Assembly: GCF_026210795.1 (NCBI RefSeq)
Contig: NC_089432.1
Location: 3,100,001 to 3,164,000 of the forward strand
Direction: 5' to 3'
DNA from: Rhizophagus irregularis
Taxonomy: Eukaryota > Glomeromycota > Glomeromycetes > Glomerales > Glomeraceae
DNA length: 64,000 nt
Each line of letters begins with the position of its first letter. Within the stretch, counting starts at the first letter, position 1. Position numbers and translations under genes: made by a program. Of the stretch, positions 16,372 to 63,474 are shown one piece after another. The notes under the pieces were generated by a model that saw only the letters and a program-made list of their open reading frames with translations, did not search any database and had not been told where the DNA came from.

Positions 16372-19300
16372 TAGGGATGGGGAAGTTCCCAAAATGAGCG
16401 GTTCGAACCCAGTTTAGAATCAAGAACCGAACCGGACCTGAGAACCGGTTCGATTCTCTAGAACTGAACCCTCCGGTCTGAACCATTCGGTTCGGTTCGG
16501 TTCGATTTGTTAATACATGTGCCGATCAATAATTTGATCATAAACATATGGGCCGATTTGGCTCATATCACTAATAAATAAAAGTGATAAATGTGAATTT
16601 GATCGACATGTCAATATACAAAAATAGTGAAAATAGTGATAATATCAAATAATGCATGATGACGTATATTTTGATTTTGCTTTTAAGCCAATTGTCAAAG
16701 ACTTCGCACGCTTGCAAAACTTGATTTCTCAATGTCAAAACCTGTCGGGAATTGGTTTGGAATTGGTTTTTTTTGGAAGGAATTTATTTTTTTTGGAAAT
16801 GGTAAGTGGTATTGTAAAATTATTTAATAGAAAGGTTATTTGGTAAAATGGCAAAAATAACTCTTATTGCGTTAGAAAAAAACAAAAATAATACGTTCCC
16901 ATATATTTATTAGAAACATTAAAGCTTTTAAAAAAAATCTTTTTATTATTGTAATTTTAATTCTTATTTATTTTATTACAGGTTTTTTTGGACGTTCTGT
17001 GTTATTTTATTTACTACCTTGATGAGATTATGTACCATATCTTTAAAGAGTTATAGCTATAGATAAACATGCTGAGTTTAGATAATTTTTGTATTATAAG
17101 AAAGAGTCTTGTTTGTCCTCTTAGAATATTAAAAATTATTTAAATTGGATTATAGGAAGCTTGGATAATAATTTTTGAGCATATTATAACATTTATTTAT
17201 AGTTTTCGTGATTTCTTGGTCTCCTGTTATTCATTTTGAACAATTTTACTTTATAAAAATAGATATAATGATTGTTTTCAAGTGGTTTATAAAATAATTC
17301 TATTTATTATGAAATTTGTGTGATTAAAATTATAAAATTTTTTTTCTTTGAATTCTTTTAACGAAATTTTTTTAAAGTTCGTATTTATTGATCACTACGC
17401 ACGTGAAATTTGACCAATAAACGGACTTTAGCTATGGTGATAAATGTGACAATGATCGACAACCCACAGGTGACATAATTGAAGTGAGACAAATCGGCCC
17501 ATATGATTTATTATAGTTATCCTATAAAAAATTTTATCCGTTATTTCTGTAAAAATTCTGTAAAAATGAGCCTTTTACGGATCCAATGATCCATTCACTG
17601 AAAATGTAAATAACTCGATAAATTCCGGGATATAAGGTTATTATTACGTTATTTTGTATCACGCCGGAATTACATAAAATCGAACAATATGTAAGTAATG
17701 TAAATCTTATAGTTTATTTGATTACATAATCATTATATTTACGTTGATCCGATACATACTTTATTATATTTTTGCTATATATTTTTATATGTATTCGTTA
17801 TTAATAAATATAACACTAAATAAATAATTTTAAATAATTTATAAAAACATTTGAGTATTTGAACTTAATTTATGAAATTAATTCTATCATACGTACAAAC
17901 AGTACAAAAAATTATATAAAAATATCTATAAAAATATAAACGGAATTATCCGTGAGAAATTGATTTTATCATGAAGATTGAATTCTAACTATGACAAAAT
18001 TCCGGATCATAATTCACAAAAAAGTAAAAATTGATAATATATATTAATATAAACAATGTGATGTTTAACCTAAAAAAGAATCTACTTTCCTTGTGTAATA
18101 GCCGATAACTGGATTATTCATAAATAAATACTGATGATCTAAGAATAATATTCTCTTTTCGGAATGGATGTTCTGAAAGAATGTCAAGCGATGAAGAATT
18201 CAACCCCGACCAAGAAAATCTAGAAGAATATGACACTGAAGAGTGGAAAGGTTCTGAGGAGCAAATTTGTTCAGAACTTAGTGATTTGGACATATCAAAT
18301 ACGTTAGGAAGTACTGTATGATTATACTTTGATAAGAACCCATCATACGCACCAGGCTATAATGTCTGTAAAAAGTGTTCATATAGATATAAAATAACAA
18401 CGGGTGTTAGTACTTTACGAAAACATCTTAATAAACACCAATTACGAGCACCTATGAAGAAATATCAAGTCTTGACTAAAAAAGGCATTCCTTTCAACTA
18501 TGATGAACAAAAAATTCACGATAAATACCTTACCAATTGGTTGATATGTGATCTCCAGCCCTTTACTACCGGAACAAATATTGCACAAGAAATAAAGCGT
18601 ACCTTGGAGGAGTTCAATATTTTTGATAGAATTATCACGCTCACAACAGATAATGAGTCCACTATGATAGTTTGTGGAAGAGAGATAGCTTTAACTATAG
18701 AAGATGAAATTTCTTCCATGACTTTTTCTCATTGCCGATGCGCCGCGCATGTCCTAAATTTGGGCGTACAGGAAGGATTAAAACTTATTGATGATTCTGT
18801 TAAAAAAGCGCGTAAACTTATGAAGAGTATCAAAAATTCAACTCGCTTGTGTGATGAGCTTCATCTCCTATGTGATTTAAAGAATATGAAATACCTTAAA
18901 CCTCTTATTGATATAGTTACTCGCTGGAACTCGACCTTTTATATGCTAAGACGGTTGGAAGTACTTAAACCAGCATTAGTCTTACTGGTAGCTGATAATC
19001 GATCAATCAGTATCTATTATCCAAATGATGATGACTGGATTGCTATCAAAGTAAATAAAAACATTTAAATAATAAAATAATTTTTATTCAATTTTCTAAT
19101 ATTACTTCCTTTACCTTTAAACTAGGATACACTCTTACTTCTTGAACCCCTGGAAAGAGCTACCAAGTATTTATCTGCATCTTCCTATCCAACTATAGGA
19201 GAAACTCATTTTATTTTTTCAGGAATCCAAGCACATTTAATAAAATATATAGAAAAGGAAACTTTTACTCAACGTGATATGGCATCTTCAATATATAGGA

Positions 19301-20358
19301 AAATTCGACAATATTGGATGATTATGGACGAATCTTCAATAATTTCTGCAATTGTAGACCCTCGAAATAAACTTACAGTCTTCCCAGAAGAATCAAGGTT
19401 GAATGCTCTCAGGCATATCCAAGACATATACAAGATTTACAAAGAGCAATTCACACCTATGAATATAGTGCAATATGCTTCTAATAGCAAACGCCAGTAT
19501 TTTTTACTACTCCAACAAGAAAATGAAGTAGACCGAATTAATGAAGAAATGTTTACTTCAACAATAGAATTGGAAGAACTGGATCATTATCTCCAATTAC
19601 CAGTTGATGTGGGAACTGACCCTCTTATGTGGTGGCAAGCGCATTATAATGAATTTCCAGTTTTATGTAATATTGCGCGAGATTTTCTCCCTATTCAAGC
19701 AACTAGCGTTGCATCAGAGCAAGCATTTTCGGTTGCTGGAAACACAATTACTAAAACCCGAAATCGTTTGTTACCAGAGACAGCAAGAGCATGTCTGTGT
19801 GTGAAAAGTTGGATGGATAAGGGTTTGATTGAATAATAATTAGTAATTTTTATATTGAATAATGCTTAAAAAAAAACATTATATTAATAAATAATGGAAA
19901 GAACAATATAATTGTATATTTGTATTCTTGGGAGGTGTGATTTAGGTTTTAGTGAGAAAAAGGTTATAAAAAACTTTTTCTTTTTAATTGTTGAAGTACA
20001 TTTACAGTAATTTTATTAATACTGCAATAAACGTTTTAATTTTAGCTTTATACATTTTTCTCAAAAAAAAAATTCGCGTTTATTTAATATTCAATTATTT
20101 ATAAAGTGCACAAAAGAAACTAACCTTAAAAAATTAAAATCAAGGTTTCGCATACACTAGAGACCAATTAAACTGCGATATTAACAAACAAGTTGTGGCT
20201 TGTCAGATGATCAGATGACATACCGTTAATTATTTAAAATTCAAACTGACCTGAAGAACTGAACCGCTCAGAACCACTTTTTTGAACGAACTGGTTCAAA
20301 ACCGGTTAAACCGCTTTGCAGAACCAGAACCGAACTGATAGAACCGTCCCCATCCCTA
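16372..20358 (+). mobile_element. 3,987-bp hAT-family transposon
   Basis: The left end is TAGGGATGGGGAAGTTCC and the right end is the reverse complement of TAGGGATGGGGACGGTTC. An exact 8-bp target duplication GTGTCAAG sits at 16364-16371 and 20359-20366. Subterminal GGTTC/GAACC motifs are repeated at both ends (16400-16505 and 20250-20345), like hAT transposase binding sites. The 1.8 kb before the transposase has no clear gene and holds a 16-bp inverted pair (16545-16560 and 17490-17505). The transposase at 18181-19836 reads toward the right end. The sharp TSD and near-intact ORF suggest a fairly recent insertion. Confidence 0.93.
18181..19836 (+). pseudogene. hAT transposase with BED finger, one nonsense codon
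   Basis: Two exons, 18181-19050 and 19126-19836 (GTAAAT..CTAG intron), encode about 526 residues. After an acidic N-terminus there is a BED zinc finger (C-K-K-C ... H-L-N-K-H, residues about 62-83). The RNase H-like core begins near T-T-D-N and includes the C-R-C-A-A-H-V-L-N-L and R-W-N-S-T motifs. The C-terminal hAT dimerisation region has W-W, R-D-F-L-P-I-Q-A-T-S-V-A-S-E-Q-A-F-S and R-N-R-L. The frame is open except for TGA at 18319-18321, exactly where BED fingers have a conserved Trp before L-Y-F. A single TGG-to-TGA change would explain it. Translation could restart at the ATG at 18454, but without the finger. The family role is cut-and-paste transposition of this element. Confidence 0.88.
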
Positions 20359-40024: not shown

Positions 40025-42177
40025 ATGTCTAATAATAACACTGAACTTAAAGTTATTGGTAACTCAAATGAGTGGATTAATTTGATTGAAGAATCTCTTG
40101 TGAAAAAGCAAATTAAATATTATGATTACAAATATTTTGATAATATTCAAGAAATTGGTTTTGGAAGTTTTGGGAAAGTTTATCGTGCAAACTGGAAAAA
40201 TTCCCATGGTTACTTAGCATTGAAATCTTTTACTAATTTTAACATCACTGCTGAAGAAATTGTTAATGAAGTAATTATTTAAAATATATATTTTATCATT
40301 ATGATAGCATTATTTCATAATTTATAATTTTATTTATTATTTTAGATTAAACTTCAGCGTGAAGTGGACTTACATGAAAATATAATTCGCTTTAATGGTA
40401 TTACAACTGGTACAATATTATTAATTTTTTAAAAACATTGTTTAATAAAAATGAACAAAATCTAAAGTAATTTTTCTTTCAAAAGAAATCCAAAATGATA
40501 ATTCAAAAAAATATTCGCTAGTGATGGAATATGCCGATAGTGGTACCCTTCGAAATTATTTGAATGATCACTTTGAAAATTTAACTTGGAATGATAAGTT
40601 AAATTTGGCACTTCAGTTAGCTAATGCTTTATCATTATTACACAATAAAGAAATCATGCACCATGATTTGGTAAGTTATTTACTTATTTAATTTATATGG
40701 TAAGATCATATACTATAATTAATTATTTATTTGCTATATTTGATAATAGAATTCAAATAATATTTTAGTTCATAAGAATACCATTAAATTAGCAGATTTT
40801 GGATTGTCAAAAAGGATTAAAGAATCATTTAATTTTCAATCAAATTTATTTGAAATGGTCCCCTACGTTGACCCACAAATTTTTAATATAATAGATGACA
40901 ATAACACCCAAATTCAAGTATATTCATTAAATAAAAAGAGTGACATTTACAGTATTGGCGTACTCTTGTGGGAAATATCTAGTGGTCGGCCACCTTTTTA
41001 TAATGAACCACATAATGTTGATTTAGCCATGGAAATTCTACGAAGTTTTAGAGAGAAGCCCATTCCTAATACACCTGAAAACTACATAAAAATTTATACT
41101 GGTAAATGCTACTAAATTTTATTATAGTTAGTAATGGTCTAATTAATAAAAGTTTATTTTTTTTATTTAGAATGCTGGAATAATGAACCAGATAATCGTC
41201 CAACTATTAATCAAATTATTATTAAATTAAGTGCAATTATTTTGGATTTACAACAAAACAATTTTAATGCAGGTATTCAATTATCAAATAAACAGCTGCT
41301 TAAATCAAGTATTGAAATTCCTGAAAAATTTATCAATGATTTATTACACGAAAAAATATCCAAAATTATTCAAAATTATATTAAGATAAATATAAAAGAA
41401 ATAGAGCCTTCAATTTCATCAAATCTAATTATAAATAATTTTAGCATGGTTATTAATGAAATAACTATACTTCTTGAAAGTATAGAAACAAATAGAAGAA
41501 AATATGAAATTATTAATTATCTTAAAAATCATAATATAACTTCCCAAGAATTTTTTTATTGGCTATTAAATAATCAGGATGATTCAGATTCAGTTTTTTT
41601 ACTTGGAGTATTCAATCATTTTGGAATTGAAATTAATGTAGACAAGCAAAAGGCGTTTGAATTATATCAAAATGCAGCAAATTTAGGAAATGTTTATGGA
41701 ATGATTGGTTTAGGATACTGTTATGACGAGGGAATTGGAACTGATATTAATGAACCAAAGGCATTTGAATTATATCAAGAGGTTGCAAATTTAGGAAATT
41801 CACGTGGGATTTATAATTTGGGATCTTGCTATGAATGTGGAATTGGAACTAATGTTAATGAACAAAAGGCATTTGAACTATATCAAGAAGCTGCAAATTT
41901 AGGAAACATGCTTGCAATTAATAATTTAGGATCTTGTTATTTAAATGGATTTGGGACGAATGTTAGTAAGAAAAGAGCATTTGGATTATTTCAAGAGGCG
42001 GCAAAATTAGGAAACCATGTAGCTCAATATAATCTCGCCTGTATGTATAAAAATGGAGAAGGAACTAAAAAGGATATAAATCAAGCAATTTATTGGTATA
42101 AAATTTCTGCTAAACAAGGAGATCTAGATGCTCAAAATGAATTAAATAATTTAATAAATAATGATATTAAGTTGTAA
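40025..42177 (+). CDS. Tyrosine-kinase-like protein kinase with Sel1 repeats (second copy)
   Basis: Exons 40025-40270, 40346-40409, 40486-40670, 40750-41101 and 41171-42177 give 617 residues. The intron positions and phases match the gene at 171. The glycine loop reads G-F-G-S-F-G, a more typical form than the first copy's G-F-G-C-F-G. The ATP lysine (Y-L-A-L-K-S-F), the H-H-D-L-N-S-N-N catalytic loop and the D-F-G are present, so the non-RD His is shared. The segment after the kinase has an S-R-K-Y-E-I-I-N-Y-L-type linker, then five Sel1-like units (one fewer than the paralogues), the last reading A-I-Y-W-Y-K-I-S-A-K-Q-G-D. Expected to be a soluble signalling kinase that binds partners through the Sel1 solenoid. 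Partner and substrate are unknown. Confidence 0.88.
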
Positions 42178-54405: not shown

Positions 54406-56624
54406 ATGTCTAATAACCCTGAACTTAAGGTTATTGGTTATTCAAATGAGTGGATTAATTGGATTGAAGAATCTATTGTAAAAAAACAAATTAAATATTA
54501 TGATCATAAAGACTTTAATAATATTAAAGAAATTGGACTCGGAAATTTCGGAAGAGTTTATCGTTCAAATTGGAAAAATTCTCATAGTTTTTTAGCTTTA
54601 AAATCTTTTATAAATTTCGATATCATTGCTAAAGAAATTGTTAATGAAGTAAATATAACATTATTATAAACATTTTTGTCTTTACGATACGCTATTAAAT
54701 GCACATTACGTTCCTATTTTAAATTTTATTTATTTTTAGCTTAAACTTCAGCGTGAAGTTGATTTTCATGAAAATATTATTCACTTTTATGGCATCACAA
54801 CAGGTATTATAAATATTTTAAAAATTTCATTTAATAACATAAAGAAAAGTCTAATATTTTTTTATTTTTCAAAAGAAATCCAAAGTGATGATTCAAAGAA
54901 ATACTTGCTAGTGATGGAATATGCCGATAGTGGTACTCTTCGAAATTATTTAAGCGAACGATTTGAAAATCTCACTTGGAATAATAAATTAAATCTAGCG
55001 TTCCAATTAGCTGTTGCTATATCATGTTTGCATGATAAAGAAATCATGCATCATGATTTGGTAGGTTACTTTCAATACTTATTTACGATTTAATGTATTA
55101 CATTGTAAGATTATATATCTAATACAAATATTTACTATTTTACTTTATTATATTTGATAATAGCATTCAAATAATATCTTAGTTCATAAGAATACAATCA
55201 AATTGGCTGACTTTGGGTTGTCAAAAAGGATTAAAGGATTACTTAAATCAAATTTATTTGAAATGGTCGCCTATGTTGATCCACAAATTTTTAATAGAAA
55301 TAGTGATAGCAACGACTCAATGAAAGTGTATTCGTTAAATAAAAAGAGTGACGTTTACAGTATTGGCATACTCTTGTGGGAAATATCTAGTGGGAAACCA
55401 CCTTTTTGTAAAGAATCATACGATATCGGTTTGGCTATGGAAATATTACAAGGTCTTAGAGAGAAACCTATTACTAATACTCCTGATGATTATATGAAAC
55501 TATATACTGGTAATACGATTAAATTTGAATTGTAATTTTTTAACAGTGTTAATTAATTTTTAAGTTTATTTTATTTATATTTAGATTGCTGGAACAATGA
55601 CCCAGATGATCGTCCAATTATCAACCAAGTTATTGCAACATTAGACGCAATTATTCTAAAGGAAAACATCCAAGTATCAAGTATACAGCAGAATATCATT
55701 AATAATCCATTACACCAAATTATTCAAAATTTTAGTGATGTAAATATGAAAGAAATTGAACCTTCAATTTCATCAAATCTAATTACAAATGACTATGAAA
55801 TATTGATTATTGAAATAATTATATTTCTACAAGATGTAGAAGTAGTTAGGAAAAAACGTGAAGTTATTAATTATCTTAATGAAAATAATTTAACTTCTCG
55901 AGAAATTTATGATTGGTTACTAAATAATCAGGATAATTCAGATTCCGTTTTTTTACTTGGAGTATTTAATCATGTTGGAATTGAAATTAATGTTGATGAA
56001 CAAAAAGCATTTGAATTATATCAAAGTGCAGCAAATACAGGGCATGTGCCCGGAATAATTAATTTGGGATTTTGTTATAATAATGGAATTGGAACTAGTA
56101 TTGATAATCAAAAAGCATTTGAACTATATCAAAAAGCAGCAAATTTAGGAAATTCATGTGGAATAAATTTTTTAGGATACTGTTATCAGGAAGGAATTGG
56201 AACTAGTATTGATTACAAAAAAGCATTTGAACTATTTCAAGAATCAGCAAATTTAGGAAGTGTATTTGGAATATGTGGTTTAGGATGTTGTTATGATCAT
56301 GGGATTGGAACAAGTATTGATAAAAAAAAAGCATTGGAGTTATATCAAAAAGGAGCAAATTTAGGAAATATATATGGTATAGCTAGTTTAGGATACTTTT
56401 ATGAAAAAGGTATTGAAACAAATGTTAATGTACAAAAGGCATTTGAACTATATGAAAAGGCTGCGAATTTAGAAGATAGTTTTTCTCAATATTGTCTTGC
56501 TTTTATGTATGAATATGGAAAAGGAGTTGAAAAGAATATAAATCAAGCAATTTATTGGTATAAAAAATGTGCTGAACAAGGAGATGTGAATGCTCAAAAT
56601 AAATTAATAAATTTAATGAATTAA
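54406..56624 (+). CDS. Tyrosine-kinase-like protein kinase with Sel1 repeats (third copy)
   Basis: Exons 54406-54648, 54740-54803, 54876-55060, 55164-55509 and 55585-56624 give 625 residues. The start at 54406 (M-S-N-N) is chosen because both paralogues begin there; an in-frame ATG at 54397 would add three residues. The glycine loop is G-L-G-N-F-G-R-V, followed by L-A-L-K-S-F, H-H-D-L-H-S-N-N (inferred across the exon 3-4 junction) and A-D-F-G-L-S-K-R. All residues needed for catalysis are present except the HRD arginine. Compared with its paralogues it lacks two codons in exon 4. Six Sel1-like units follow (first partial), with C-Y-x-x-G-I-G-T-S-I-D signatures and a final A-I-Y-W-Y-K-K-C-A-E-Q-G-D. 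The function expected from the family is intracellular signalling. Confidence 0.88.
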
Positions 56625-58184: not shown

Positions 58185-58600
58185 GTTTTTACATGGTCCA
58201 TCTGTTTATCTCATTTTCATTTTTTTGTTTTTTTTTTGTCTCTTCATTTCTTTTGCTCTTTTTATTCTTCCCTTCCTTCATTTTTTCCATTGTTTTTATT
58301 TCCTCTTCATTCCTTTTGTCTTTTTCATTCCTTTACACTACCCTTCGTTCATTTCATTTTTACCACTTCATCATTTTCGTTCCTTTACAATATCTTTTGT
58401 TCTTTTCATTTTTTTTCCATTCCCACTTCTCTTTACACTACCCTTTGTTCCTTTATTCCTCTTTGCTCTATTTCGTCCCCTCCATTCTTTTCATTTTTTT
58501 CATTAGTTCCCGCTTGATCTTTTCGTTCCTATTGTTTCTTTCACTCCCCCTTTCCCTTTTACCCTCCCTATTTTTTCATTCACCCTCATTTTTTTATTAA
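58185..58600. repeat. pyrimidine-rich low-complexity tract
   Basis: T/C-only runs (TTCATTTTT, TCCCTTTCCC) extend over about 400 bases and keep all three plus-strand frames open. The three long Phe/Ser/Leu-rich ORFs here are composition artefacts. Confidence 0.8.
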
Positions 58601-58750
58601 TTTTTAGAAGTATTTTCGAAAAAACTTTAATATTATGAAAATACTACAAATGTTTTTACTAATTAATTATAAATTCTATAATTATTTCTTATTTATATTA
58701 CGTCAATCTTAAACTTATAACCAACTTAGGAAAAATATTTTAATAATTAA

Positions 58751-61700
58751 TTCGTGATCCGCATATAAAGTAGAGAATATCGATATTCCGATGTGGGGTG
58801 CCGATCATATATAAATATAGTAAATTAGCCATAATTCAGCTATTTTGGACCGAGCTAGCACCACCATCTTGTACGACCTAAACGTCATATTTTATATGCT
58901 AATAATAGAATACTATATGAATAAATTTCTTGCATTTTCGTACTGAATTTGTAAACAAAAAAAAACCTTTTACTAGCCGGGTCGTCAGATTCCTGGCTAT
59001 AAATATAGTAAGTAAATTCGCAATTTCAATAATTTTTATAAAATTTATGGCAAAAAAACTTAAAAAAATGTTGTTTTAACGTCAAAAATTTTCAAAAATT
59101 TACAAAATTTTATTCATTTGTCAAATTCTTTATTTACTAAGATCTGTCAACTAGCGCTAAAGCTTGTTGGGCTTTCAATTTACGATGAGTTTGTGCATAT
59201 CGAGAAATCCAATTACTAATTGTAGAAATTTTTGGAATTTCCTCTTCTTCTAAAACTCCTTCTTCTACTAAACCTTTCAGTTCATTATGCATCTCTTGAG
59301 CTGTATACTTTTCACTTTTATTTATATCTCCGGCCAAGAAATATGCCTCAAGGTATGGAATAACATTTTTGCTTATTCGTTTACCTCCTCCTTTTTTACC
59401 AAATTTCTGATTTTCTTTTAAGGCCCATCCACTTGATAATGCAAAATTCGATGTGTGATTCAAAACTTGCCTTGAACCCAAATCAGTATCAATAATTTCA
59501 GTATTCAAAACGTCTATTATTCGTTCAGAAAAAAAGAAAATTAGTTTTGAGATAATATAATCACAATTTTACGGTAAGAATGATTTACCTATATTTTGTG
59601 GTGATATTTCATCGTTCAATTTATTTTGTAAAATTTCTGCTAATATAACTCTATTATTGCTTACATCTGTGTCAACGCCATATTCCTTCAATTGTTTTTT
59701 CAATTCTTCAATAGTAAGACGATTTGTATTGATTTCTAATATAAAAAAAAATCAATGTAAAACAATTGCAAAAAAAGAAAAAAAAATCAATTTATTACAT
59801 ACTTGATCTATGAGGTAATGGAATATTCCAATTGGAAGTTGGAATTGAGTGATCTGAAACTTGTGGATTAGGTTTTTCAAGAGGTCTTTTTTCAAATTGT
59901 GCTATTTTAGCCGGCTCAAAATTTTTCCAAGTTCCAATATTAGGCATTGCACGAGCCTGAATAAATCCTGCATATTCACCTTCTGTCGGCCAGGACCACT
60001 CATACCAATTGGAATTTCCTGGTATTGAATTTTTCTTTTTTCGTCCTGATTCTATAAATCATAGTAATTGCTTTCAGTAATAAGTATTACATAACTTCAA
60101 AATTGTATTCTCACATATACCCTTTTTCCGTTCTGGTTCCAAATGTGCTACTGAAGTACCACAAATCCCTTGAATAGCATTCTCTATGTCTACACCTTCA
60201 TTGATATCAAACCCCAATCGAACATAACGATTTATCGCATGTGAAATCTGTAACCAATGATTCAATAAATAATAATGGTGATTTCCTAAATTATTTGAAC
60301 AATCAATACACACTTGGGCATGGTGAGAATCAATTGATGTTTTAGCCTCTCCAGCTTCTAAAAAAACCCATTTTTTTACTGAAATATTGTACCATTCATT
60401 CCAATGCCCTAGAATTAACATTAGGTCCGCATTGTGATAATGTGGACCATTATCAGAAAGAAAAGTAACCCAATCTGGTTTGACTTCAAGCGATTCAATA
60501 ACTGCATGTAGTGAAGAAGCTGTGAACCATGCATCTTGGCATGTATCGGCCAACCAGTGATCAAATACTTGAATATCCAATTGATGACTTTCAGATTTTC
60601 GTGTATAGACAAGAATTGAATGCAAAGCCCATCCTTTTTTCCCAAAAAAAGCACTTTTTGTTTCTCTTGCGCTCTTGGGTAAGATTTTCATCTTATAATC
60701 AACTATTATTATAGCTCCTTTTTCATCTAAATCTAATAGATTCGCGTTAAATTGAGAATTTAGAAATACCTTTCGCGTCTGATGACTCAAATAATAGAAA
60801 ATTTGATCTCGTAATTCATAAATTTCCTCGTGAATATTATTTGGAGTGTTTTTTTCAATATCAATGAAGAATTGAAAAAGTGCATCACAATCTGAACATG
60901 TGTGAGTATGTTGTTCATTACATATACCAAAAGCAAAAGGAAGGCAATGGTTTATACATTGGTTATGTGCTGTTGTACCATCAGAATTTACAGTCAAATG
61001 TGACTCATATTCCCTTTTCAGATATCGTTTTAACTTCTCTCCTTGATCTAATAATTGATTCTAAATGAAATTATTAGAAATTAATATTATATAATTATTT
61101 TTTATCAATTATAGGAATAAAAATATTACCTGGATATGAAGATTACTAACGTGATTTTGAATGAGTTTGGTAAGTTCATCAAATGTTTCATAGCCATATG
61201 TGTTGCATATTGAACACAAACCACCAAGATTCTCACGATAAATATATCTATTGCCCTGCAAATGCTTATAAAAAGTTGTTCGTTTTACTCCACTTGGATA
61301 TTTTTCATGAAACTTTTCCCACAGATCTTGTTTCGTATTTTTGAGGTAATGAACTGGTTCTTGCGTAATGGTGTCTGTTTTGTATGAACTCATTATTACA
61401 TTAGCCTTATCAGAAAAGAATTGTTCTAAATTTTCTTTTTTTCCCGTCCTAATTTGTCTTTGACAATAATAGGTTTTTGTGCTTGAGGTGCACCTGGTCC
61501 ATTAATACGCGCATATTGGCGGGCTCTTGATACTGTATTTGCAGCTACCTGTAAGTTTATATTTTTATTAGTTCAATTATTTTGATAACATGCATTGTAG
61601 TAGTATACACTAACAGTACACTTACCCCTAATTTTGATCTGAGTTCTTGATAGGTAAATTTTGTAGCAATAATTGAAAGAATTCGTCTTTGACCATTTGG

Positions 61701-63069
61701 ACCTCTATTTGTATTTTCCAATGCGTTACGAAATGCTTGCCAAAATGTAAGAGATTGATTTTCTTGATAATATGGATTTTGTTGGAGGAATCCTGATTCA
61801 TAAAGTATTTGTAATGTTGTACTATCTTTTTGAACGTTATCTGATTTCGTCCAAAATTCAAACTAAATTAAAAAAATTATTTGTCAATAATAAATAAAAA
61901 AGTCAACTCATTTTTTTGCATAATTACTAACTTTAGATTCTCCATTTTTGAAGGGGGTGATATTAGTACATCCTGCATTTCGAACAAATGCTCTCCAAGC
62001 ACGCCATTCTCGTTCATTAATTTCATAACCAGATGGATATAAATCTAAAATAGCTTTCCGTAATTCTAAAATATCACTTTTCTGATTTAACCATTTATTA
62101 AATAAATCATGCCATTTGACCTCACGTGAAATTCTTCTTTTCAAATGATATTTATAAAGATTTTCTAACACTCCCTCTAAAGTCCAGTCCAATACCGTGC
62201 AAGAAGGAATTTGTGCTTGTTGAATACAAATTTGCGTATACGGATTTTCTAACCCAAAAATTTTTTTCCAGAATAATTTGAAAGTCTGCCAATACATAAC
62301 CAAACTTCATTAGGATCAATAGCATTATACGTCTTTATCAAAGTATCATTAGTATATATTTGAACTACACACTCTTCATCTTCTATTTCTTGAATAAAAG
62401 CTGATTTTATACCATTGTAATGGGATTGAAAGACGGATTTATATCCTTCTCCTGCATAATTCCATTCTGGTTTTTTTGATTTTCCCATTCCCAGCACAAT
62501 TACGTTCAATTTTCCAAGACTAATCATATATGGACGAAATATAATATCATCAAGTAATTGTTGTATAATATTTGAATTGTCAAAACCCATAACTTGTGGA
62601 CCAGGGAACTTTGCATTTGAACGAAAAACTTTTTCATAGCAGGTGTTAATAGCTTCTGTTGGTGAACTGCACACACCTGACCTATATTCTTCAGAAAAAC
62701 ACAAAAATCCAGGAGAATTTGGATGTTGAGTATCTTTTACAACGGTAATTATGAAGTCACATTTTTTTAAAACTGTATGAGTTTTCATTCCTAAACGAAT
62801 CGGAAGGAGAGGAGTATGCGTAGGATTCTTATTTATTGGTCGCGCAAGCCACCAGTTATGACAAAATGGACCAAAATGTAAATTTTCTACAATTTTGCCT
62901 GGGGAAATAAGTGTTGTAATGTATTCTTTACTTTTACTCATATGTTTTGACTTTAAAAAAGAAGTTGGGTATGTAAAAAACGCGAGATTCTAAAAGACGC
63001 GAAATCGCATATGCGTATTATCCCCGGATTTTATATATGTCGATCACTACTTTATATACGGATCACGAA
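58751..63069 (-). mobile_element. TTAA-flanked TIR transposon carrying a large DDE-like gene
   Basis: The left end TTCGTGATCCGCATATAAAG and the reverse complement of the right end (TTCGTGATCCGTATATAAAG) match, and the similarity runs on through GTAG(A/T)GA: about 26 bases with two mismatches. TTAA stands immediately outside both ends (58747-58750 and 63070-63073). Subterminal GATC..ATATATAAA-like motifs recur inside both ends. The 4,319-bp element is almost filled by one spliced minus-strand gene (59137-62941). A TTAA duplication is known from piggyBac, Kolobok and one Sola group. The protein does not look like piggyBac or hAT to me, so the superfamily is left open. Confidence 0.75.
59137..62941 (-). 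CDS. large transposase-like protein with probable DDE core and SAP-like C-terminus
   Basis: Eight minus-strand exons: 62941-61932, 61862-61626, 61548-61130, 61060-60314, 60247-60121, 60051-59803, 59735-59589 and 59513-59137. They would encode about 1,104 residues if two 1-base losses are allowed for, in homopolymers near 62256-62267 (exon 1) and 61435-61442 (exon 3). With those corrections all splice phases agree. The N-terminal ~330 residues are of unknown fold. Next come helical DNA-binding-like segments (V-A-A-N-T-V-S-R-A-R) and Cys-rich clusters (L-C-S-I-C; C-x3-C-x7-C-x7-C-x2-C at about 591-614). The probable catalytic core has D677 (I-I-I-V-D-Y-K-M), D759 (F-L-S-D-N-G-P-H-Y-H) and E791 or E794 (V-F-L-E-A-G-E-A-K). 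A SAP-like motif (L-K-K-Q-L-K-E-Y-G-V) and a C-terminal helical tail follow. The intron at 60248-60313 is 66 bases and in frame. Related proteins seem common in Rhizophagus, by memory. Confidence 0.72.
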
Positions 63070-63474
63070 TTAAATGTATTGGAATCTATTCATTTCATTT
63101 ATTATTATTCATTTTACTCGATAAATTATTAATTTAACTAAACCATTTGAATTAAAAACTTTATTCAAAAATCTGGTGGTTATTTAGAGAATTTCGGAAT
63201 TCGGATATGGATTTGGGTTATAATAATCTATTATTAAATCAACAATTTCTTCAAAAAGAATTGATATTTTTACATATTTTATAATTAATTAATTGATTTT
63301 TATGAGTTTGAAAATCAAAACTATTTATCCAGCGTTCAATTTAATTGAAAAAATCTTACTCATCTTTCTATCAACGTCGGTCAATTTTTCTATATCTGAT
63401 ATGTTATATTGATCTTTTTTAAAAAAAATAATAATTTTGTAAATATATTTAATATAATATTTTATTTTTTATTT

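Follow-up and report, generated by a model that had tools for sequence, protein, structure and literature searches.

A TTAA-inserting DNA transposon of Rhizophagus irregularis whose large, intron-containing transposase is probably distantly related to DUF7869 proteins

The 64,000-nt stretch of the Rhizophagus irregularis genome analysed here (contig NC_089432.1, positions 3,100,001–3,164,000; hereafter the window) carries a 4,327-bp element at 58747–63073, counting the TTAA tetranucleotides at both borders, which a preceding sequence-only reading had described as having inverted ends and TTAA on either side. The left TTAA occupies 58747–58750 and the right one 63070–63073, each being the outermost tetranucleotide of the element. 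Immediately inside lie the left terminal inverted repeat (TIR; 58751–58776, plus strand), which starts with TTCGTGATCCG, and the right one (63044–63069, minus strand). Taken with the TTAA, the arms 58747–58776 and 63044–63073 form a 30-nt inverted repeat of 93% complementarity, ranked first in the region. In the 146.7-Mb assembly of 32 contigs that was searched as the genome, the 15-nt end TTAATTCGTGATCCG is found 405 times (210 + 195) when up to one mismatch is tolerated, against five for the reversed control, and an end whose first four places are almost free (DNNN) gives 197 exact matches against four. TTAA accompanies 88 of the 100 DNNN-end matches listed (a hand count), compared with a background of 1.4% of sites in the window. 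Given these counts, the association of the end sequence with TTAA goes beyond chance, and the inverted ends and TTAA borders of the earlier description are borne out.

The best gene model for the element, on the minus strand, comprises seven exons and six GT-AG introns and encodes 1,126 amino acids in the undisrupted copy L002, replacing the eight exons and approximately 1,104 residues first proposed. Exon 1 (61932–62941) encodes the N-terminal region, and a weak HTH_23 match (E 0.54) covers the end of exon 2 (61626–61862) and the start of exon 3 (61130–61548), the latter with the conserved motifs YL..K..LW.kF...P.G..rT.F and LC..C. Exon 4 (60121–61060) holds a Cys/His cluster and the catalytic core, with Asp residues in vDYKM, SDNG.HYH and GEAKT.iDSHHA. 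Exon 5 spans 59803–60051, exon 6 (59589–59735) contains a sub-threshold SAP/LEM-like motif, and exon 7 (59137–59513) encodes a conserved GWaLK.nqk and the C-terminal part. Compared with copies L001–L003, the window copy lacks a single base in each of two A-runs, at about 62264 in exon 1 and about 61443 in exon 3, and its reading frame is therefore interrupted (first stop at residue 231); these two deletions probably gave rise to the eight-exon model. They are either real or, conceivably, assembly errors in the A-runs. L001 has a stop at residue 873 and L003 at residue 411, and transposase alignments were obtained from all 18 diverged relatives fetched, one of them only partial.

The window flanks 58597–58746 and 63074–63223, joined at one TTAA into a 304-nt query, match at least 40 unoccupied copies of a dispersed repeat (40 of 347 candidates scored), all of them across the junction and the best at 94–95% identity, and a single TTAA stands at the junction in all four of the empty sites fetched. 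Joined flanks of 11 other insertions, searched as one query, gave 48 rows, 31 of which span the junctions of four sites (L022 with 21 rows, L003 with five, L001 with three and L019 with two); one TTAA was present in nine of the nine fetched empty sites of these four. Among the other queried sites, six recovered their own flanks and L007 yielded none among the matches listed, while a single row for L010 (80%, E 1e-6), lying over the junction right beside its own place, was left out of the count. On the strength of these empty sites, TTAA is the target site duplication in the window subfamily (window copy, L001 and L003), in the diverged L022 and in the short derivative L019. The element thus combines inverted ends with a target site duplication and with empty sites, as TIR cut-and-paste DNA transposons do, and at the level of sequence the element and its insertion at TTAA can be considered confirmed. 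The repeat that received the window element has at least 40 other copies, and the target of L022 is likewise a repeat, with 21 other copies among the matches listed (L039–L041).

Over aligned element positions the window copy is 99.8, 99.4 and 99.6% identical to L001, L002 and L003, respectively, and 96.0% identical to L004, and the near-identical copies sit in unrelated flanks. The main BLAST alignment stops no more than 7 bases from the borders in seven of the 11 pairs compared (the window copy with L001, L002 and L003; L021/L022; L023/L024; L018/L019; L017/L020) and no more than 3 bases from them in L030/L033; L004 and L036 were cut by the fetched regions in this comparison. Copies sharing ends and TTAA borders, together with empty sites, had been named beforehand as a check on the element, and both were found. 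The catalytic exon has at least 130 matches in the genome, at about 110 places after hand merging of neighbours; the figure is a lower bound because 122 of 233 candidates were scored.

Inverted repeats around the genes of the 18 diverged relatives were sought without requiring TTAA, and in 12 of them the top or co-top repeat starts exactly at TTAA; in L033 it starts 3 nt outside, L026 and L027 score weakly, and L036 was cut by the fetched region. Over 4,172 bp L023 shows no difference from L024; their flanks differ, TTAA stands on both borders, and the right inverted end is the poorer one. The end types found inside the TTAA across the family are TTCGTGATCCG, GTCGTGATCCG, GNGACNGATC, GATCCGATTCG and TTGCCGATCCG. 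In a tree of 18 protein rows, from which L037 was omitted as too short and where L036 bears the end label of its near-copy L028, clades correspond to GNGACNGATC (four rows) and to GATCCGATTCG and GTCGTGATCCG (each represented by two close copies), and TTCGTGATCCG and TTGCCGATCCG are scattered. Pairs of ends 0.4–1.2 kb apart are common in the genome; the 20-nt flanks of 16 such pairs that were fetched all differ, their TTAA being a matter of selection because they were picked for an exact match at both ends. The family looks long-lived and recently active, judging by its approximately 110 related places, its five or more types of end and the many short derivatives that run from end to end.

Alignment of 14 catalytic exons reveals invariant D121 (DYKM), D203 (SDNG.HYH) and D244 (GEAKT.iDSHHA), with E235 and E238 likewise invariant; 34 residues lie between D203 and E238 and 40 between D203 and D244. 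For the third catalytic residue the Asp of GEAKTSIDSHHA is a better candidate than a Glu, which would correct the D..D..E core originally proposed. A Pfam search with the whole 1,126-residue protein returned nothing above the cut-off, SAP (E 0.039) and HTH_23 both being sub-threshold; the exon 6 frame gave SAP at E 0.018 and LEM at E 0.0094, also sub-threshold, so the proposed SAP-like tail amounts to a sub-threshold match. With the 14 cores, Pfam gave scattered weak matches (zf-C2HE at 0.0054 in one of the 14, rve at 0.12 in one), and Pfam, NCBIfam and PDB sequence searches with the exons and the 14-member alignment provided nothing usable. The family NF046079 appeared at E 5e-4 and was rejected, with 20 bits against a cut-off of 165 bits. 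The hAT dimerisation and RNase H domains of Pfam were absent from the protein, and both were detected in another frame of the window, at 19126–19833. When viral and prokaryotic contigs were scanned for patterns of the family alignment, 28 and 6 stretches came up, respectively, none of them a relative, and an AlphaFold model of the catalytic exon alone (predicted local distance difference test, pLDDT, 34) was unusable.

A candidate relative was reached through the motif D-N-C-x-G-Q-N-K-N, which occurs at 14 places in the genome against none for the control; proteins from four of these match the Pfam domain DUF7869 (PF25273). The genome contains 21 matches to this domain, none of them at the listed places of the window family, and DUF7869 is absent from the Pfam families listed for 14 window-family members at E ≤ 10. 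The pattern of another family, D-G-x3-Q-F-K-N, has no match in the genome. In prokaryotic contigs a DUF7869 scan found 61 pattern stretches and 11 relatives (from Desulfobacterales, Thiomargarita and others); in viral contigs there were no pattern matches, and a second scan gave 76 stretches without a relative.

Comparison of the family alignment with a fungal DUF7869 set by hhalign brought all three Asp into register at E 0.15; with bacterial DUF7869 sequences added, 3 and 4 of 200 column shuffles equalled the score of the core, over a short aligned stretch of 25 columns. An in-house semi-global profile alignment placed the three family Asp on the three Asp of DUF7869, and in its first run neither 150 shuffles nor 47 other windows taken from the same proteins produced an equally good score. 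In a second run, no shuffle out of 100 equalled the core when it was set against all, against bacterial-only or against fungal-only DUF7869, and none out of 60 did so for any of six single members. As controls, the core gave 6 of 100 against rve integrases (five loci, the others having been dropped for failed or ambiguous frames) and 50 of 60 against one piggyBac sequence, and DUF7869 against rve gave 7 of 100. Upstream of the core, the exon 3 block also matched DUF7869 (0 of 200 shuffles). In this alignment the two families share a co-linear D..D..D core with a DN motif at the second Asp, G..K...D at the third, a nearly equal spacing from the second to the third Asp (40 versus 41) and an LC..C block upstream, whereas identity is very low, the Pfam model misses the window family, and the latter has introns and a much longer N-terminal part. 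The window transposase is probably, although not provably, a remote homologue of DUF7869 proteins with a D-D-D triad. Since the core and the upstream block match DUF7869 in this profile comparison, and DUF7869 also occurs in bacteria, the family is probably not isolated. The suggestion that it is undescribed or fungus-specific is partly supported, having in its favour the lack of a convincing Pfam match and of any pattern relative in the viral and prokaryotic contigs scanned, and against it the DUF7869 match to a family that is also bacterial.

DUF7869 itself looks like an unannotated transposase domain with a D-D-D core. Seven of the nine bacterial DUF7869 genes examined (from among L082–L092) lie between long inverted ends in insertion-sequence-like units of 2.1–2.7 kb, and two show no long ends. 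These units differ from the window element in their mostly GGGG-type ends and in having no TTAA borders. The same fungal genome contains DUF7869 genes of its own (L055/L057, L051/L056, L054/L058 and L070–L072), a family distinct from the window element; L057 is a 2.6-kb unit. Among DUF7869 loci, AATT stands on both sides of L057 and L086, and unequal A/T tetramers are found at others. A model of a bacterial DUF7869 protein built on 11 sequences (pLDDT 73) aligns over residues ~335–520 with retroviral integrase cores (e.g., 6rwl_A, Z 8.3, root-mean-square deviation (rmsd) 2.9 over 122 residues), and with the Mos1 transposase at Z 8.5, although there with rmsd 17 over 269 residues that belong to several domains. 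These alignments speak for an RNase H-like recombinase fold in DUF7869, and only indirectly in the window protein. Neither piggyBac nor Kolobok has a row in the list of structural alignments, an absence that rules out neither.

Several observations weigh against this interpretation, most of them directed at the kinship with DUF7869. The hhalign E value of 0.15 recurred with a longer region on a different stretch; column shuffles were as good in 34 of 400 cases and in 139 of 400 in global mode, and with exon 3 added in 32 and 27 of 200. The semi-global alignment was a post hoc method, designed after the weak hhalign result; its shuffles ignore local structure, its piggyBac control was a single sequence, and the DDE_3 control loci were left unused. 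Reversed profiles score 62–75 compared with 89–115 for the real ones, and outside the core and the exon 3 block there is little or no signal (8 of 200 shuffles for the middle, 6 of 200 for the post-core part and 57 of 200 for the N-terminal part). On the structural side, Foldseek alone found no match of the bacterial model in the PDB at E ≤ 0.001, and a Z score near 8 can reflect just a common arrangement. As to the element, the sequence-only reading had named homology running past the TTAA borders, or gene copies outside any TIR, as grounds for abandoning it. Homology stops at or near the borders except that the L026/L027 alignment extends 30–38 nt beyond them, into AT-rich flanks that are unlike on inspection, and most of the 18 diverged relatives have ends, L037 and L038 lacking them in the inverted-repeat search. 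We infer the action of the transposase, the catalytic triad and the DUF7869 kinship with certainty falling in that order.

On balance, the element is very probably a TTAA-specific DDD cut-and-paste DNA transposon, whose enzyme would be a remote DUF7869 relative, distinct from piggyBac and hAT and probably from Kolobok as well. Ends, Pfam searches and empty sites support the original view, in which a DNA transposon bordered by TTAA encodes a large transposase of many exons that belongs to neither piggyBac nor hAT. The transposase (about 1,126 residues, seven exons), with a predicted RNase H-like core and a putative Asp-Asp-Asp triad, would bind the inverted ends (5'-TTCGTGATCCG in the window subfamily), excise the element and insert it at TTAA, duplicating the four bases that are observed at the borders. 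The window copy is a recent insertion into the dispersed repeat, and because of its two 1-nt deletions it would need transposase from elsewhere.

The alternative that survives best places the family, as an ordinary member, in the Sola3 group of the Sola superfamily, where existing classification already covers it. Sola transposases are DDD enzymes that produce 4-bp duplications and have bacterial members, and Sola3 targets TTAA. The 4-bp TTAA duplication revealed by the empty sites agrees with this, as would the putative DDD triad, with three invariant Asp that align to those of DUF7869, and the probable relationship to a family that bacteria also carry; the family may be what Repbase would call Sola3-like. 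The comparison with Sola is one of group features. Sola-1 and Sola-2 are among the R. irregularis groups named in PMC11075540, along with CMC, hAT, MULE, Plavaka and Transib; profiles for Kolobok, PiggyBac and Sola-3 were also used there, yet each of these words stands once in the main text, in a list in the methods. No description of Sola3 was found in the literature passages searched for Sola, and the passages of PMC3706591 and PMC6337768 contain nothing on a Sola transposon. Membership in Sola3 is a serious contender, with a probability somewhat short of even.

A divergent Kolobok lineage is improbable. It would explain the TTAA duplication, and Kolobok has been reported from fungi (PMC9587614); a literal DxxH string (DSHH) starts 41 residues past the second Asp, and some related end types begin with two purines, GG or GA. 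However, the 5' ends inside the TTAA are TT, GT, GA or GG across the family, and the window group, 5'-TT..AA-3', departs from the 5'-RR..YY-3' termini given for Kolobok in the same source. The C/DxxH motif of Kolobok lies between the second D and the last E, whereas in the projected alignment no Glu is conserved at 90% after DSHH (one, in exon 7, reaches 70%), and the Asp of DSHH aligns to the third Asp of DUF7869. A piggyBac relative shares the TTAA duplication and is very improbable: the model DDE_Tnp_1_7 (PF13843) works in this genome, with 22 matches elsewhere and none at the listed family places, it is not listed for the 1,126-residue protein at E ≤ 5, the 5'-CC..GG-3' termini described in PMC10045372 differ from all four family ends, and no similarity emerged in the semi-global comparison with the one piggyBac sequence. 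That a host gene is surrounded by inverted repeats by chance, as its many exons and more than 1,100 residues, in our judgement unusual for a transposon, might suggest, is refuted by the empty sites and disfavoured by near-identical copies with the same ends in unrelated flanks and by short end-to-end pairs, and has next to no probability left.

It is possible, if rather doubtful, that the transposon represents an undescribed TTAA-specific eukaryotic DDD superfamily whose proteins have a very long N-terminal region and share an ancestor with the bacterial and fungal DUF7869 elements, and which reaches large numbers of copies and miniature inverted-repeat transposable elements in an arbuscular mycorrhizal fungus; if so, TTAA targeting would have arisen independently of piggyBac and Kolobok. 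The literature search found no paper on TTAA-inserting transposons in Rhizophagus or Glomeromycotina, and none on DUF7869, and the link proposed here suggests that this Pfam domain of unknown function is a transposase. According to PMC11075540 (2024), two-thirds of R. irregularis transposable elements remain unclassified. At least about 110 transposase places and about 400 recognisable ends offer a boundary rule for part of these unclassified elements, by which many short ones become recognisable. Insertion at TTAA and the near-identical copies also make the transposon a candidate gene-delivery tool for this group of fungi.

Elsewhere in the window, hAT-type frames at 18322–19833 include a sub-threshold BED finger besides the hAT RNase H and dimerisation domains, and three open frames with Sel1 repeats lie at 1350–2450, 41143–42174 and 55557–56621.

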